Below, piece after piece: positions 17,052 through 64,000 of a stretch of 64,000 nt of DNA. The notes under the pieces are model-generated. The model saw only the letters and a program-made list of their open reading frames with translations, was not told the origin of the DNA and searched no databases. The first letter of the stretch is position 1. Each line of letters begins with the position of its first letter. Both the position numbers and the translations under genes were made by a program. The stretch is from an uncultured Nitrospirales bacterium (GTDB lineage: Bacteria > Nitrospirota > Nitrospiria > Nitrospirales > UBA8639), in assembly GCA_958295805.1 (NCBI GenBank), contig OY282373.1, positions 1,521,001 through 1,585,000 on the forward strand, given 5' to 3'.

Positions 17052-17939
17052 TTATTCCTTCCAGGTGAAGTGGGAGGCGCCTGCGAGTGTGCGGGGAATC
17101 TGGACGCCGGTGTAGCGTTGGTCGTTGATGATCCATGTGGGGTAGCTGCGGATTTCGTTGACCACGCATGGGGCCGTGAGAGGGCTTCCGCGACCCCCGG
17201 AACTGCACTCGACGTAGGGGAGCCGCTTGGCCGACGCCTTGAACAAGGCCTTTTGTTCTTGGCAGCGGGGACACCAGTAGGCACCGTAGAACTTGGCATC
17301 CGTGTCGCTCAGGTGGATGGCCAGGGCCTTAAGCTGAGGATCCTCCGGGCCTGCGGCTTCATCGAAGACCCCGCTGTAGTGCAAGTGGAGTCCGCCGACG
17401 ATGAGCACGGCGACCACCGCGGCTTCTTTCAGCGACGTTGACCAATCGGGCGGTCGGCGCACGAGGCTGAGCACCATGATCGCGGTGATGATGCCGAACG
17501 AGGCCAGACAGTACGGACAGGTCGCTTCTATTTCCACGACGGAGACTACCGTCAGATAGGCACTGATGCTGAATCCGCAGATGGCGACGAACAACAACGG
17601 CGTCCAGTTTTTGGGTCGGGTTCTGGTCTGCCAGGCGAGGCCTGCCATGACGGCGTAGGTCAGCAATCCCCACAGAGACATGGGCATCCCCAGAAACGTG
17701 GCCCAGCGGCTGCTTTGCACCAGATCGCATCCGGAATCTTCCCCGCAAAAGGCGGGGTGGGTTTCAAACGAGGTCGTGTAGGTGAGATAGGTCGTCAACA
17801 CCATCCCCAAGAGTGCCAGGATAAGGATAATAACGCTGAGCGTAGACGTGAGAGGTGATTCTTCAGCCGCTGCCTGCCGTGAAACGCTTTGGGCACTTCC
17901 GATGTTTTCAGGTTTTTGCCGTTTATGACGTTTGGTCAT
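17052..17939 (-). CDS. VKOR-thioredoxin fusion (disulfide-bond formation)
   Basis: 295 aa. After a basic cytoplasmic tail, four to five membrane segments carry a vitamin K epoxide reductase domain with loop cysteines 65 and 71 (FCGEDSGC) and the quinone-proximal CPYC pair (141/144). A thioredoxin-like domain follows with CPRC at 223-226 and a cis-Pro loop (IRSYPTWIIN). This fusion is a known bacterial replacement for DsbB/DsbA: electrons pass from periplasmic thiols through the Trx domain to quinone. It starts 19 bp after the stop of the HtrA-like protease gene, so both are probably in one envelope-quality operon. Confidence 0.92.
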   Translation of the reverse strand: MTKRHKRQKPENIGSAQSVSRQAAAEESPLTSTLSVIILILALLGMVLTTYLTYTTSFETHPAFCGEDSGCDLVQSSRWATFLGMPMSLWGLLTYAVMAGLAWQTRTRPKNWTPLLFVAICGFSISAYLTVVSVVEIEATCPYCLASFGIITAIMVLSLVRRPPDWSTSLKEAAVVAVLIVGGLHLHYSGVFDEAAGPEDPQLKALAIHLSDTDAKFYGAYWCPRCQEQKALFKASAKRLPYVECSSGGRGSPLTAPCVVNEIRSYPTWIINDQRYTGVQIPRTLAGASHFTWKE

Positions 17940-49624: not shown

Positions 49625-49700
49625 GGCCAGTTCGCACTTCTCCCCTCTCTTTTTCCAACCATATAGATAAGGGCTGAGTTTGCCGAGCATCCCAATACCG

Positions 49701-49986
49701 GGCGCCATGAGATGGCGCAGCTACGAAGGAAGGGATGGTATTGGCGGGGTGTCAGCAACGGCGAGTCCCGGGGCGCCATGAGATGGCGCGGCTACAAGGA
49801 AGGGATGGCATTGGCGGAGGTGTCAGCAACGGCGAGTCCCATGGCGTCATGAGATGGCGTAGCTACGAAGGAAGGGACGGTATCGGCGGGAGGGTCAGCA
49901 ACGGCGAGTCCCATGGCGCCATGAGATGGCGCGGCTACGAAGGAAGGGATGGCATCGGCGGGGGTGTCAGCAACGGCGAATCCCGG
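49701..49986 (+). repeat. Tandem array of four 71-72 bp units
   Basis: Units start at 49701, 49772, 49843 and 49915, with a fifth partial start at 49987. Each begins with GGCG(C/T)CATGAGATGGCG, the dispersed palindrome of 16778 and 19037, then CTAC(G/A)AAGGAAGGGA, then GTCAGCAACGGCGA(G/A)TCCC. The last units have a 72-bp period, the first ones 71. It overlaps the hicB-like remnant on the minus strand. There are no unique spacers, so it is not a CRISPR. Confidence 0.9.
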
Positions 49987-50022
49987 GGCGTCGTCGCCAT
50001 GAATAAACGCGATGTAACGCAT
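49792..50022 (-). pseudogene. hicB-like antitoxin start running into the tandem array
   Basis: The ATG at 50022 follows AGGAGG at ideal spacing and 12 bases after the hicA-like stop. The first residues MRYIAFIHGDDAPGF have the look of a HicB N-terminus, but the reading frame then consists only of array units (GFAVADTPADAIPSF, GLAVADPPADTVPSF and so on) and stops. The HicB core and DNA-binding C-terminus are missing. Confidence 0.6.
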
Positions 50023-57480: not shown

Positions 57481-57555
57481 TGGAGCTGGCGAGAGGAATC
57501 GAACCTCCAACCAGCGGTTTACAAAACCGCTGCTCTGCCATTGAGCTACGCCAGC
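57481..57555 (-). tRNA. tRNA-Thr (anticodon TGT)
   Basis: 75 bases on the minus strand, ending in an encoded CCA (57481-57483). The acceptor stem GCTGGCG pairs with the 3' CGCCAGC, the anticodon stem GCGGT/ACCGC holds loop TTTGTAA with anticodon TGT (plus-strand ACA at 57521-57523), and the T arm has GGTTCGATTCC. It reads ACA threonine codons. Confidence 0.95.
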
Positions 57556-57740: not shown

Positions 57741-58412
57741 TCAGTCAAGCAGCTTTATCAGTGCGACCGTCAGGCCGACAATGCTGACGGCCATGATCCA
57801 TAAGTGGCGGTACAACCGGGCTTCCAGGTCGGCAAGGTTAGCTTGGCTTTCGGCACGACCCGCCTTCAACTCCGCCCTGAACTCAGCACGATCCGCCTTC
57901 AACTCCGCCCTGAACTCAGCACGATCCGCCTTCAACTCCGCCCAGATATCAGCACGATCCGCCTTCAACTCAGCCCCGACCCCAGCAATATCGGCCTTCA
58001 CCTCGGCCAATTCCGTCCGTACTTCGGTAATATCGGCCTTCACCTCGTTCAGTTCCGTCCGCACTTCGGCAATATCGGCTTTCAACTCGGCCTTCACCTC
58101 GGCCAATTCCGTCCGTACTTCGGCAATGTCGGCTTTCAACTCGGCCTTCACCTCGGCCAATTCCGTCCGCACTTCGGCAATGTCGGCTTTCAACTCGGCC
58201 TTCACTCCGGCCAATTCCGTCCGCACTTCAGTAACGTCGGCCTTCACTCCGGCCAGTTCCGTCCGCACTTCGGTCATGTCGGCCTTTGTTGCCATGTTCT
58301 CACCCATGGCCGCGCCAACGGTCTCAACCACGGCTTCAGCCAAGTGTTCGTTTGCCCCGGCTTCTTGGAGAGCCTTGACGGCTTTGTGCGTATCAAAGGC
58401 AAGCATAGTCAT
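57741..58412 (-). CDS. DUF1640-like coiled-coil protein with expanded repeats
   Basis: 223 aa from the ATG at 58412. The start MLAFDTHKAVKALQEAGANEHLAEA matches the DUF1640 (CCDC90-like) N-terminus. The middle is a tandem coiled-coil made of near-identical 18-residue units (AEVRTELAEVKAELKADI, 54 bp each) grading into 7- to 11-residue units (KADRAEFRAEL). A C-terminal membrane anchor (HLWIMAVSIVGLTVALIKLL) ends it. The repeats mean the length probably varies between strains. Family function in bacteria is unknown; long reverse-strand frames here are repeat shadows. Confidence 0.82.
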   Translation of the reverse strand: MTMLAFDTHKAVKALQEAGANEHLAEAVVETVGAAMGENMATKADMTEVRTELAGVKADVTEVRTELAGVKAELKADIAEVRTELAEVKAELKADIAEVRTELAEVKAELKADIAEVRTELNEVKADITEVRTELAEVKADIAGVGAELKADRADIWAELKADRAEFRAELKADRAEFRAELKAGRAESQANLADLEARLYRHLWIMAVSIVGLTVALIKLLD

Positions 58413-58424
58413 GACGCCTACCAT

Positions 58425-59311
58425 ACTGCTGACCGGCCCGACCAGTCAATGACAGAATACTCCAGGCCGCTCTCTTTCTCCCCCCACCGTTCCCACCCCC
58501 TCTCCCTGGCCTTCCGCCCTCCCTGGCCTTCCGCCCTCCCTGACCTTCCCGCCTCTCGCTGCCCCCCCCCACCCCCCCCTGTCATTCCCGCCCCCTCTGT
58601 CATTCCCGCGAAGCCTGTCCCCGACATTTGTTATCGGGGAGCGGGAATCCAGGAAAGCCCTCACAGTGCGCAGACCTGCCGGAGGCGCCTAGGCCTTCCC
58701 CTGGATTCCCGCTAAAGACTGCGGGAATGACAATAGGGGAGGCTGGAATGTCAATGGGGAGGCCGGAATGCCAAGGGGGGCCGGAATGCCAGTAGCATCC
58801 CGCCCTCTCTGTCCTTCCCTACCCCCTCTCTATCATTCCTGCCCTTCTGTCCTTCCCTTTCCCCCTATTGTCATTCCCGCGAAGCCTGTCCCCGACATTT
58901 GTTATCGGGGAGCGGGAATCCAGGAAAGCCTTCACGGTGCGCAGACCTCCCTGCGGCCTCTAAGCCTTCCCCCGGCTTCCCGTTGATACGGGAATGACAA
59001 CGGGGGAATGCCAGTGACCGAGAGAAGCGGGTTGCCTGCCCGTCTGCGTCGCGGGCGCAGGCATACTCCGGGACCATGCCTTCTCCAATGGCAACCTGAG
59101 TGCCAAAGGTCGTGGACCCATACAATTCTTGACCTGTTTGCAGGCTGCTAATCAGGTATAAAATGTCTTCCTTTTCACACGGGTACGCCCCATTCAGGCT
59201 CGGCTTCCGGACGGCCGCCTGCCGTCTTCAGCTTCCTCGGGCGTGCGCGCATTGATCCGACGGATCGAAGAAACCGACTTCATGAACTCATCAACTAACA
59301 GGAGGAAAACT
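58425..59311. repeat. Hairpin-rich spacer with duplicated ATTCCCGC modules
   Basis: No gene supported across about 890 bp. Two copies of a 130-bp module lie at 58599-58731 and 58870-58999. Each holds ATTCCCGC...TCCCCGA...TCGGGGA...GCGGGAAT, a hairpin nested inside another. Copy 1 ends with ATTCCCGC-8 bases-GCGGGAAT (58705-58728), the unit seen at 20.8-21.1 kb. C- and G-runs at 58561-58578 are low-complexity. The last 150 bp should include a promoter for 59312, but none was convincing. Confidence 0.8.
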
Positions 59312-59989
59312 ATGAAACGACAAATGGCTCTGCTCACCTGCTTTTTTGTTCTCGGAGTATCCATGGCCCATGCCGGCTCCGCCGACGCGGACAAAGACGG
59401 GAAGACCGTCGAGTTGACGAAGACAGGTGCCTCCGCTCAGAAGCTAGGAAGGTCGGAGACAACGTGGAAGGGCATATATGTATCCGATCAAAACGACAAC
59501 CGTAGATCCGACCCTTCACCGAGGGGTTTCTTCGGCGGCAAATTCATAGAGGACTACTACTCCAACGCTTCACCGACGGATGCAGGGAAGGATGGCGGTC
59601 ATGGCTCCGGCTCCGGCCCAAACGACGCGGACGAAGATGGATGCTGGTTCCCGAAGGACTATGAATATAGGTGCCTCTCCGGGGTCAACAAAGACCTCGG
59701 TTGGGCGCACGTACTGTGGTTGACGAATAACTGCGGCGGACGGATCTATGCCAAATTCTGCAGCGAACAGGTGAAAGGGATAGAGTACAGTCAGAGTTGC
59801 GGTGCGGCTCCTATCGGGGATGGAAAAAAACATGATTGGGTCGAATCAAAAGGAACGGACACGACGCCGTGGCCGAAGCCGACGGGGGAGCATAAATGGA
59901 CGTTCGTGGGATCAAACATTCCGAGCAGGGATTGGGTCTGTGCCGGAAAATCCGAGGCTTTGGATAAACTGGAGGGCATTCCCTACTGA
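59312..59989 (+). CDS. Secreted protein with conserved cysteines, unknown family
   Basis: 225 aa from the ATG at 59312, preceded by AGGAGGAAAA. A signal peptide (MALLTCFFVLGVSMAHA) is followed by a polar, Asp/Gly/Ser-rich stretch (about 20-120) and a compact C-terminal domain with about six Cys, Trp-rich (DGCWFPKDYEYRCLSG, NNCGGRIYAKFC, KKHDWVESKGTDTTPW, HKWTFVGSNIPSRDWVCAGK). The C-terminal segment recurs in the fragment at 60490-60676. Not recognised; the Cys pattern suggests disulfides in the periplasm or outside. Confidence 0.7.
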   Translation: MKRQMALLTCFFVLGVSMAHAGSADADKDGKTVELTKTGASAQKLGRSETTWKGIYVSDQNDNRRSDPSPRGFFGGKFIEDYYSNASPTDAGKDGGHGSGSGPNDADEDGCWFPKDYEYRCLSGVNKDLGWAHVLWLTNNCGGRIYAKFCSEQVKGIEYSQSCGAAPIGDGKKHDWVESKGTDTTPWPKPTGEHKWTFVGSNIPSRDWVCAGKSEALDKLEGIPY

Positions 59990-60388: not shown

Positions 60389-60453
60389 ATGACAGCCCTG
60401 CGTGATGGGCATTGTCGCGGTGACGTCAAGGGAGCGTCACCATTTTCGAGAAC

Positions 60454-60480
60454 CAGGCCCGCCTGTTCATGGCGGGCCTG
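60454..60480 (+). terminator. Strong GC hairpin, possible terminator
   Basis: CAGGCCCGCC (60454-60463) pairs perfectly with GGCGGGCCTG (60471-60480) around a 7-base loop. No T-run follows, so factor-independent termination is uncertain; it may instead be the 5' border of the duplicated fragment that starts 10 bases later. Confidence 0.4.
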
Positions 60481-60489
60481 TCATACCGG

Positions 60490-60676
60490 CGGCGCAAGTT
60501 GTATCGGGGCTGGGAAACGACGTGAGTGGATAGAACCAAAAGGGGCGGACCTGCCGTGGCCGAACCCGACGGAGAACCATAAATGGACATTCGTGGGAGC
60601 AAACATTTGGGCCAAAGATTGGGTCTGTGCCGGGAAGGCTGAGTATTGGGATGAACCGGAGGACGCTCCGTATTGA
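60490..60676 (+). pseudogene. Duplicated C-terminal fragment of the 59312 gene
   Basis: The frame reads SCIGAGKRREWIEPKGADLPW, then NHKWTFVGANIWAKDWVCAGK and DAPY, matching the last 60 residues of the 59312-59989 protein at about two-thirds identity, including the stop position. There is no signal peptide, and the upstream in-frame sequence (from 60389) is unrelated. It is a partial gene duplication, probably non-functional as such. Confidence 0.75.
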
Positions 60677-60778
60677 GAGGCTGAGGCCGCGCATCGGAGA
60701 GACGCGCGCAGAAATGGATCGGAGCGTCATGTTGCCCGCCCCGCAAACGAGCGTGGGGTGTGGCGGAAAGGCAAAGCG

Positions 60779-62851
60779 ATGTCTCACAACGTGACAGTGA
60801 ACACCCTGGTCGCCCTGGCCTGTGCCTTGACCCTGGCAGGATGCAGCATCCCAGGGAAGATTTTAGAAACCTTCGATATCGAAAGAGACATCATCGTCAA
60901 GAGGGATGCGAGTCAGAGCGTCATCATCAATCACAAACCGAACTGGATGACTCGGCCGGGAACGGTAACGCCGGAACGCGTCGTCTGTACCGAGCCAAGC
61001 CCGGACGTGGCAACCGTTCTTGCAAGGTCCATTACTGCTAAAGTTGCTGCAGGCGAGGACAGTGCAGAGTATGCTGCCTCGTCGTCGCAGGGGCTGGTGC
61101 AACTGGCGGAACGCACGGTGGCCGTGCAGGTGCTGCGCGAACGCATGTTCCGCGCCTGCGAGTCCTATGCCAACGGGGCCATCACGGGCACCACCTATAC
61201 GCTTCTCATGAACCGGTTCGACCGGGCCATGGTGACGGTCCTGTTCGGCGAAGTGATGGGCGGTGCCTTTGGCCGCAGCCTGGCCGCAATCGGCACCACC
61301 ACCCAAGCGGCCGAAAGACTGGTGGAATTGGACAAAGAACTCAAGGACGCCAAGAAGGCGCTTAAGGAGGCAAGGAGGAAGCCTGAGCCCGATCAGACGA
61401 TCAAGGAGTTGGAGGATGCGGTTACCGAAGCCAAGGCCAAACGAGACTTCGCGGATGAATCCTTCCACACCCACGTAGCCGCCGCTGCCGGCCCCATCGA
61501 GACCAAGGCTGGTCCAGAAACACACGGCTACATGAAAGACGTCTTCAAGGACTTCGTGGAAAGCAATCCAGTGGACGACTACATCGCCGCCTGTGTGGTT
61601 GAAATGGAGCGGGGTCTGGCCGGCAACGACCGCCCCTTCGGTCGCTACAGGGAACAGGTAATCAGCAAGTTAATAGAGCCCCCTTCTAACCGGTTTTCTC
61701 GCTGGGTTTTGGGAACCCTTGAATTATTTAACATTTATACGGACGTTTTGACCACGGAAAGAGAACGAACCCTTGCAGCAATTGAGGGGCTTGATCGGCG
61801 GTCCGCCTTGTTTGAGCATTGTAAGGAGAATCTCACTACTCTGTTGGAACAGCGGGAGTGGACATTCGTGTCCCTCAAGAGGGACGAGATGGAGCTCAAG
61901 AGGGCCGAGTTGAGGGTCCGCGAACAGGAGATACTTACCGCGGCGATGACACAGTGCAACAAGATCAAGGAGCCGTGCAACATCTGTAGTCCACCGTGCA
62001 ACGAGTGCCAGGAGCCGTGCGACCCCTGTAGTCCACCGTGCAACAAGTGCCAGGGGCCGTGCGACCCCTGTAGTCCACCGTGCAACGAGTGCCAGGGGCC
62101 GTGCGACCCCTGTAGTCCACCGTGCAACGAGTGCCAGGAGCCGTGCGACCCCTGTAGTCCACCGTGCAACGAGTGCCAGGGGCCGTGCGACCCCTGTAGT
62201 CCACCGTGCAACAAGTGCAAGGAGACATTGGCCGAAACCTGTATGAAGAAGGTTATCAAGAAGTTTAATGGGCCGTATGAACCTGACACGAATTACCAAT
62301 GGCGGCCCTTTCTCGGCTGCGGCAGCAAAGAGACTCTCCCTACGTTCGCGTTTGATCGGTTCAAACCCAAGATCGAAGAAGCGATCAAAAAACAGGAGAA
62401 AGCCAGGAGGGAATTGAATGCTCTCGTCTTGCAGGAAATCACAGAGGATTGTAACTGTGAAAAAGAAAAGAAAAACCAAAATATCCGTGCGCTAAATGAA
62501 AAAAAGAAAACCTTGATCAGCAAATCCAATGACCTAATTGAACAGGCAGAAAACAAGATGAACGAGGAGACGCGCAATGAACTCGAAACCCTTGAGACTG
62601 ACAGCACGCGCTTCCAGGATAAACTGCAAACGGCGAAGGCTGATCATGAGAGAGAATTTTACCAACTGGAATTGCGGCGCCAGTGTATTAAGGCGAAAAA
62701 AGAATCCAAAGAGTACGAAGCACTCTTAACGAAAATTAAAACCGAGACCGAGAAGTTGAAGCTCCACAGCAAGAAAATGGAGAAGGAGGGTGCCACAGTG
62801 GAGGAGGCAGGTGCCACCAAAATAGAACACGCAGGAGTGAGCAATGGCTGA
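60779..62851 (+). CDS. Large lipoprotein with coiled coils and a Cys/Pro repeat domain
   Basis: 690 aa from the ATG at 60779. A lipoprotein signal ends [12 protein letters not shown]. The N-terminal 300 residues are helical (with [19 protein letters not shown]-type coiled coil near 190-230). At about residues 398-481 lies a domain of six 14-residue units, (E/G)PC(D/N)xCSPPCN(E/K)C(Q/K), with four Cys each. A lysine/glutamate-rich coiled coil fills 530-690. No family recognised. It may be a surface-tethered rod with a rigid, disulfide- or metal-rich hinge; function unknown. Confidence 0.72.
61970..62221 (+). repeat. Six in-frame 42-bp tandem units (Cys/Pro-rich)
   Basis: Units begin at 61970, 62012, 62054, 62096, 62138 and 62180, each starting G(A/G)GCCGTGC and containing TGTAGTCCACCGTGCAAC. 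Units 2-6 are almost identical; unit 1 is the most diverged. All keep the reading frame of the surrounding lipoprotein. Confidence 0.93.
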
Positions 62852-63089
62852 TACGCGACGAAAGACCGCTTACCCGATCTGTAAGAGTTGACCAATTCGC
62901 GGACAGAATCACCGACTCTCGTCATGCCCGCGCACAGGCTGTTCCGTGGTTGAGACGGGGCGGGAATGCAGGGGAAGGGACAGGGCCACCGGCTGACGCA
63001 GGAAGAAGCACAGAGAAAAGGCGTGGGCCAACCGGCTTTCACCCTGGCGAGGGAGGGTGATGGTTATGAACGACGGGAGGACGTTGACG

Positions 63090-64000
63090 ATGAGCACAGT
63101 GATGACCTTGGTGTGCGTGCTTCTGAGTCTGGGGTGGGGCGGGACGGGGATGGCCCAGGACCGGCTGCCGGAGATTGTGATGGATCAATATTCCTTGGAA
63201 GGGACAAAGGCTTTGGACAAAGGGCAGGCGTACCTGGCGAGACGGGCGTTTGAGAAGATCGAAGCCCTGCCGATCGAGCCGACGCCGGCGTTCTTGTTTA
63301 CGGACGGCCAACGGCTGGTGGAACACGGCACCATGGAGGCGAAGGTGCGCAAAGGCGCAGGCTTGCTCAAACAATTTATTGTCAAGGAGACAGAAGAGTC
63401 CGAACGGTACGCCGCGACGTTGACCCTGCTGTCGCGGGCCGATTGCCTGGGCTGTCAGTCGGCCGCGGGCTGTCAGTCGGCCGCGGGTTGTCCGGCGGAG
63501 GCGGAACAGGCAAAGGCGAAATGTCGGGCGGAGCGACAAAAGCAGAACCTAGAATGCCTCCTCCGGCCAGTCTCCATCCCGGGCGCCCGTTTCCCGATGG
63601 TCTCCATCCCGGGCGGCAGCTTCAAGATGGGCTGCACCCGTGAGCAGCGTGAGTGTGATGACGACGAATACCCGGTACATGAGGTGCGGGTGCGGGCCTT
63701 TGAGATCGGGCAGTATGAGGTGACGAAGGAGCTGTGGGATGCCGTCATGTTCGAGATCCCGAGTCATTTCAGGGACTGTGAACAGTGTCCCATGGAGTCT
63801 GTCAGCTTTGTTGAAATCCAGCGGTTTCTCAAGAAACTGAGCTTGCAAACGGAACACCAGTATCGGTTGCCGACGGAGGCAGAGTGGGAGTATGCGGCCC
63901 GCGGGGGTCAGCAGAGTCGTGGCTACCAGTATGCCGGGAGTGACATCCCGGGTGAGGTGGCGTGGTATGACGGGAATAGCGGGAAGGAGACCACTCCGGT
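63090..64000 (+). CDS. Secreted formylglycine-generating-enzyme-like protein (partial)
   Basis: Open from the ATG at 63090 to the window end (303 codons, incomplete), with GGGAGG 9 bases before the start. A signal peptide (LVCVLLSLGWGGTGMAQ) is followed by a helical region to about residue 130, duplicated CQSAAG units and VSIPGARFPM/VSIPGGSFKMG. From there it is an FGE-sulfatase (SUMF1-like) domain: HEVRVRAFEIGQYEVTKELWDAV, PMESVSFVEIQRFL, YRLPTEAEWEYAARGG and VAWYDGNSG. Bacterial relatives include FGE, EgtB and PvdO; an activity cannot be assigned from the part seen. The duplicated strands are unusual. Confidence 0.85.
   Translation, partial: MSTVMTLVCVLLSLGWGGTGMAQDRLPEIVMDQYSLEGTKALDKGQAYLARRAFEKIEALPIEPTPAFLFTDGQRLVEHGTMEAKVRKGAGLLKQFIVKETEESERYAATLTLLSRADCLGCQSAAGCQSAAGCPAEAEQAKAKCRAERQKQNLECLLRPVSIPGARFPMVSIPGGSFKMGCTREQRECDDDEYPVHEVRVRAFEIGQYEVTKELWDAVMFEIPSHFRDCEQCPMESVSFVEIQRFLKKLSLQTEHQYRLPTEAEWEYAARGGQQSRGYQYAGSDIPGEVAWYDGNSGKETTP

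Follow-up and report, generated by a model that had tools for sequence, protein, structure and literature searches.

What do 24 cysteines set at regular intervals do in a bacterial lipoprotein, and where did they come from? The question is raised by a gene in the 64,000-nucleotide stretch of DNA analyzed here (the window; positions 1,521,001 to 1,585,000 of contig OY282373.1), which has a GC content of 56.7% and belongs to a host genome assembled as a single 2.9-Mb contig. The host is probably a marine nitrite-oxidising bacterium living as a sponge symbiont. In size, GC, and relatives the host genome fits Candidatus Nitrosymbion, the GTDB genus bin75, which comprises sponge-associated nitrite oxidisers with a mean of 2.36 Mb and 56.9% GC (PMC11812461). 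The gene and the main parts of its product, which we call P0001, are as follows:

60758-62851, forward strand: lipoprotein gene, with an ATG start at 60779 (690 aa) or an upstream GTG start at 60758 (697 aa)
60833-60844, forward strand: lipobox LAGC, recognized by sequence, with the lipidated Cys22 and a Ser at +2
60845-61273, forward strand: conserved N-terminal domain of an unnamed family (VC70-x-EPSPD, R112, QxLR, RxC127E, NGA, E158)
61592-61822, forward strand: second conserved cysteine pair, Cys272 (61592-61594) and Cys348 (61820-61822)
61805-61963, forward strand: predicted long helix of residues 343-395, the first arm of a hairpin (AlphaFold2, pLDDT mostly 76-83)
61950-62224, forward strand: 42-bp tandem array of 6.5 copies, also with a 21-bp period, placing 24 Cys in residues 400-480 (Tandem Repeats Finder)

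The in-frame GTG may be the true start, because the MWRKGKA that it adds would supply the positive n-region otherwise missing from the signal peptide. A lipid anchor had been claimed in the earlier note, and it is borne out by the lipobox and by the retention of C22 in 60 of 61 aligned members of the family described below. Since a serine follows Cys22, the lipidated protein would probably be located at the outer membrane. P0001 has 36 cysteines in total; excluding the lipidated one leaves 34 in the mature chain, an even number.

The array itself proved much as the earlier note had described it, with 24 cysteines in about 85 residues and six nearly identical 42-bp (14-residue) units. Tandem Repeats Finder scores it at 452 with 93% matches over its 6.5 copies, a copy number taken from one assembly. 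Five complete units, CN[EK]CQ[EG]PCDPCSPP, are followed and preceded by partial ones, and the 21-bp sub-period divides the whole into thirteen in-frame heptads, mostly CN[EK]CQ[EG]P and CDPCSPP in alternation. Twelve of these heptads carry a CxxC motif, two cysteines apiece, so that residues 400-480 hold exactly 24 cysteines at a strictly alternating spacing of 3,4,3,4; the slightly wider segment 393-488 holds 26. Proline is present in every heptad save the last partial one. The five full units differ at two nucleotide positions only; each of these changes the amino acid (E/K and E/G), and silent differences are absent.

Whether P0001 belongs to any family was addressed by several searches. 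Scans with Pfam, NCBIfam, PHROGs, and PADLOC returned coiled-coil noise only and matched no family, a PDB sequence search gave no match, and Foldseek found nothing at E <= 0.001 for the model of P0001 or of its long homologue L081; structural matches from VIA-align reached a Z of at most 11, the level of generic long helices. A scan of genome contigs with the single P0001 sequence likewise found no relatives. The first relatives, recognized by a common N-terminal domain, came from searching genomes related to the host, and an alignment profile searched against GTDB species genomes later gave 99 relatives, mostly in Proteobacteria with some in Nitrospirota, Nitrospinota, and others. The resulting family of lipoproteins has more than 80 members, some of them plasmid-borne (15 plasmid records in the profile search), and the profile found no member in 50,697 phage records. 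Of 395 genomes sampled across the phylum, 22 encode a member, and within the genus it is present in 1 of 14 genomes, that of the host alone; the family is thus accessory.

Nearly all of the approximately 87 members examined have a lipobox. Across the 61 aligned members, C70 and C127 are invariant (61/61 each), while C272 and C348 are found in 59 and 57, respectively. Members such as WP_007091716.1 of Thalassospira and WP_025767479.1 of a Vibrio plasmid have in common with P0001 the lipobox, C70-x-EPSPD, R112, C127-E, C272, C348, and predicted helices after the N-terminal domain. Unlike P0001, most are 350-500 aa long and lack the C-terminal helices, and the cysteine array occurs in none of the approximately 87, which have at most 4 Cys in any 40 residues versus 12 in P0001. 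A SPOR domain of the peptidoglycan type (PF05036), scoring 22.6 bits where the cutoff is 21, is present in one relative and is consistent with a periplasmic setting. Judged by these sequence features, the family appears to be an exported, lipidated one that makes use of cysteine pairs. The view that P0001 belongs to no known bacterial family therefore stands insofar as the libraries searched contain no match, but not for the protein as a whole: the roughly 390 residues before the array and 170 after it belong to an undescribed, widespread lipoprotein family. The Vibrio plasmid protein WP_025767479.1 (L010:4965-6089) is annotated 'ATP:cob(I)alamin adenosyltransferase'; its sequence is that of a family lipoprotein, and the enzyme name looks wrong.

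The origin of the array is best approached through a long subfamily of 624-689 aa, sampled from partial genome sets, with members in an alphaproteobacterium (L081), Marinicaulis (L078), Ca. Thiodiazotropha (L070), Polaromonas (L069), and Pseudomonadales (L073). P0001 is homologous to these proteins over its whole length, C-terminal helices included. The five are 29-34% identical to its residues 10-404 over 420-450 aligned columns, and a profile of their C-terminus scores 35.1 bits against that of P0001, where 1000 shuffles reach at most 15.7. Three further features bear on the comparison:

62246-62848, forward strand: C-terminal region with homology to that of the long subfamily, beginning with LPTxAFD and continuing as helices 521-669 (pLDDT mostly 86-94)
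61955-61975, forward strand: heptad CNKIKEP (residues 393-399), a probable remnant of the ancestral cysteine loop, resembling KCNGIQNE and VCNKVSDE of the long homologues
62240-62242, forward strand: Cys488, candidate second cysteine of the ancestral loop by its position relative to the homologues' C-x(10-14)-C loops, with Cys480 as the alternative

All five long homologues have, at the site of the array, a Cys-x(10-14)-Cys loop of 12-16 residues (CEALSGDERSGC, CQKFDSATEKNEKKTC, CNKVSDEKVKAAC, CNGIQNETVKADC, and CGKLEGAERKVC), where P0001 has instead 96 residues and 26 Cys in place of 2. The AlphaFold2 models have a pTM of about 0.45, and we used only their local helices and the turn. In L081, helix 361-419, a turn at 420-423, and helix 424-438 (pLDDT about 75-90) place both loop cysteines at the tip. 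In P0001, helix 343-395 ends and helix 478-497 starts at either side of the array, which itself has a pLDDT of about 43, so that neither disulfides nor tip geometry can be seen there. Helices 560-593, 596-618, and 622-669 follow, and together with helix 343-395 they agree with the flanking coiled coils that had been claimed from the sequence.

At each end the array looks like the ancestral loop. The CNKIKEP heptad is identical to the CN-C-type heptads at 16-17 of 21 nucleotides (except the heptad at 400, at 11/21), and its best match elsewhere in the gene is 14 of 21. This nucleotide identity, together with the likeness of CNKIKEP to CNKVSDE and CNGIQNE in the homologues' loops, suggests that 21/42-bp duplication of the loop native to the family is the most likely source of the array, which would have expanded where it now stands. 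We infer this growth from similarity. Among the relatives sampled, only the P0001 genome carries an array, and this absence, with the near identity of the units, upholds the earlier proposal of recent expansion. We regard the anatomy and the origin described here as highly secure.

Searches for the array elsewhere yielded no counterpart. Matches in Mycetohabitans and Mycobacteroides plasmids are low-complexity sequences without cysteine arrays, phage LR745206 encodes a protein that is rich in Cys and looks helical but lacks the proline repeat, and a match in another genome of the same genus (G002, L007) seems to be a coincidental one, to a different short repeat. A scan of IMG/VR for array peptides found none, and a literature search for such a repeat in bacterial lipoproteins found no paper. 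Animal cornifin and keratin-associated proteins contain short Pro/Cys tandem repeats; these are similar in kind to that of P0001, but there is no sequence match and P0001 is a bacterial lipoprotein.

Among several functions that may be considered, an envelope stalk with an enlarged, disulfide-closed tip appears the most likely, although we would put it at somewhat short of an even chance. The earlier suggestion of a stalk agrees with it to the extent that a stalk-like lipoprotein with an unusual cysteine tip fits the predicted structure. The window also encodes a protein that bears on the fate of the cysteines:

17055-17939: VKOR-family protein (PF07884, E 3.9e-25)

With an exported family that uses cysteine pairs and a VKOR in the window, disulfides would be the default fate of paired cysteines, and a disulfide-knotted tip is favored for this reason. 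The ancestral loop would have been duplicated in frame, first by 21 bp and then by 42 bp, and P0001 would be exported, lipidated, probably at the outer membrane, and oxidized by the periplasmic disulfide machinery of the host. Cysteines added always in pairs would then be joined by disulfides inside one molecule and perhaps also from one molecule to the next. The outcome would be a helical stalk ending in a compact tip, stiffened by proline and knotted by disulfides, which could cross-link neighboring stalks or resist proteolysis, and whose unit number slippage would alter.

CxxC pairs are the commonest metal ligands too, and the array could instead be a thiolate segment binding Cu(I), Zn, or an Fe-S cluster, in the manner of a metallothionein, a copper-storage-like protein, or a series of Rad50-type zinc hooks that link two hairpins tip to tip. 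In the Rad50 zinc hook, a CxxC caps a hairpin of two antiparallel helices, and P0001 would place twelve at the apex of its predicted hairpin, a position deduced from the P0001 and L081 models around an array of low pLDDT. Rad50, however, is a cytoplasmic ABC ATPase with one CxxC, whereas P0001 is a lipoprotein in which no Pfam ATPase domain, and so no split head of the Rad50 kind, was found. The alternating 3/4 spacing is shared with the copper-storage DUF326/Csp-like proteins, to whose Cys-rich helices the array query gives weak matches (3lmf, E 0.31; phage LR745206), but such spacing arises from any CxxC heptad. Those proteins are helical bundles without regular prolines; P0001 has neither a DUF326/Csp match in Pfam nor proline-free Cys helices, and the prolines of its heptads speak against a Csp-type helix. 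A Pfam search of the array with E allowed up to 10 gives MSSP only (E 2.3) and no family of metal-binding proteins, export leads to an oxidizing compartment with a VKOR-type enzyme, and the two cysteines of the homologues' loops are too few for a metal store. A metal-binding role is rather unlikely.

Slightly less probable again is that slippage expanded the array neutrally, in which case a loop tolerant of insertions would have carried along the cysteines of a seed that happened to begin with one, with no function added. The array occurs in one genome only among those searched, further tandem repeats lie nearby (57.8-58.9 kb and 63.45 kb), which suggests that slippage may simply be common in the region, and the units are too alike for selection to show: because the array is so young, is limited to one genome, and lacks the synonymous changes needed for dN/dS, selection cannot be demonstrated. 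Against this, the frame has been kept over 6.5 copies with all 24 cysteines intact, and 24 reactive thiols that served no purpose should be a burden on an exported protein.

The genomic setting raises a further possibility. About 20 kb of strain-specific DNA surrounds the gene, an insertion that extends from window position 57555 to about 77918 (past the window end; genome position is window position plus 1521000), where a dehydrogenase gene forms the other edge. Two of its features fall in the window:

57481-57555, reverse strand: tRNA-Thr(TGT), at the left edge of the insertion
63057-64000, forward strand: exported protein with an FGE-sulfatase (C-lectin-like) domain, the first of a DGR-type target array, running past the window end

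The same interval measures about 1.2, 1.0, and 0.1 kb in three congeners, where the insertion is absent; the interval beside tRNA-Thr is an insertion hot spot. Inside the insertion are a reverse transcriptase ORF (L124:8390-9682, PF00078; L124 is genome 1583500-1603000) and a template repeat (about L124:9541-9669), to which at least nine variable regions correspond, all in exported proteins with FGE-sulfatase domains. In nine variable regions, 65% of the template's A sites differ versus 20% of its other sites, and this bias, with the reverse transcriptase and the repeat, marks a diversity-generating retroelement (DGR), a system of known kind. Domains of the FGE type have been described as targets of DGRs (PMC10907252).

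Several smaller observations belong to this region. An 18-bp tandem repeat at 63449-63504 adds cysteines (LGCQSAAGCQSAAGC) to the first FGE-sulfatase protein. An exported 248-aa protein (59243-59989) shares the tail KWTFVGxNI...DWVCAGKxE with a downstream fragment (60389-60676), which may be its partial duplicate or a gene remnant. On the reverse strand, 57741-58424 encodes a coiled-coil protein with a CCDC90-like profile built of 33-, 42-, and 54-bp tandem repeats, similar to repeats at L167:3243-3331. Window positions 49700-49990 contain 4.1 copies of a 72-bp tandem repeat. Elsewhere in the family, a papain-family (PF00112) peptidase gene lies directly 3' of the lipoprotein gene on the same strand in L057, L069, L078, and L081, and near it in L087; it is thus directly downstream in three of the five long members, where P0001 instead has the FGE-sulfatase gene.

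It is improbable that the lipoprotein functions within the DGR cassette, as a protein that displays the variable FGE-sulfatase proteins at the envelope or cross-links them there. It does lie in the same insertion, on the same strand and 205 bp upstream of the first target, which also has a short tandem cysteine repeat, but many genomes and plasmids encode family members without such neighbors. A closely related DGR in the congener G005 (contig C6, L167:8852-12200), with a reverse transcriptase 79% identical and an FGE-type target, sits in another genomic place with no copy of the lipoprotein nearby. Nor does P0001 itself qualify as a target, since its best similarity to the template repeat (53/129) is at background level and it has no variable region. 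Lastly, the idea that the cysteine frame is untranslated, through a frameshift or use of another frame, can be set aside as very improbable: a looser PCxxCxx DNA pattern on viral contigs does give 41 stretches, many apparently out-of-frame readings of collagen-like or other repeats, but here ORF 60779-62851 runs 690 codons without a stop and the cysteine frame is the one that matches homologues on both flanks.

P0001 has its lipoprotein framework in common with the long homologues, and what sets it apart is the probable expansion of a seed cysteine loop into a 24-Cys chain. The family to which they belong, widespread, marked by cysteine pairs that do not vary, and unnamed in the libraries searched, is now visible, and its Vibrio plasmid members are seen to bear a misleading enzyme name. 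Within it, a cysteine-rich repeat is apparently being born inside an existing protein, where repeat-free relatives, seed loop, and expanded form can all be compared. It is possible, if doubtful, that such loop expansion yields a length-variable cysteine polymer on an envelope lipoprotein, cross-linking stalks or storing metal outside the cytoplasm; if so, it would represent a loop-expansion route to new cysteine-rich material in bacteria.
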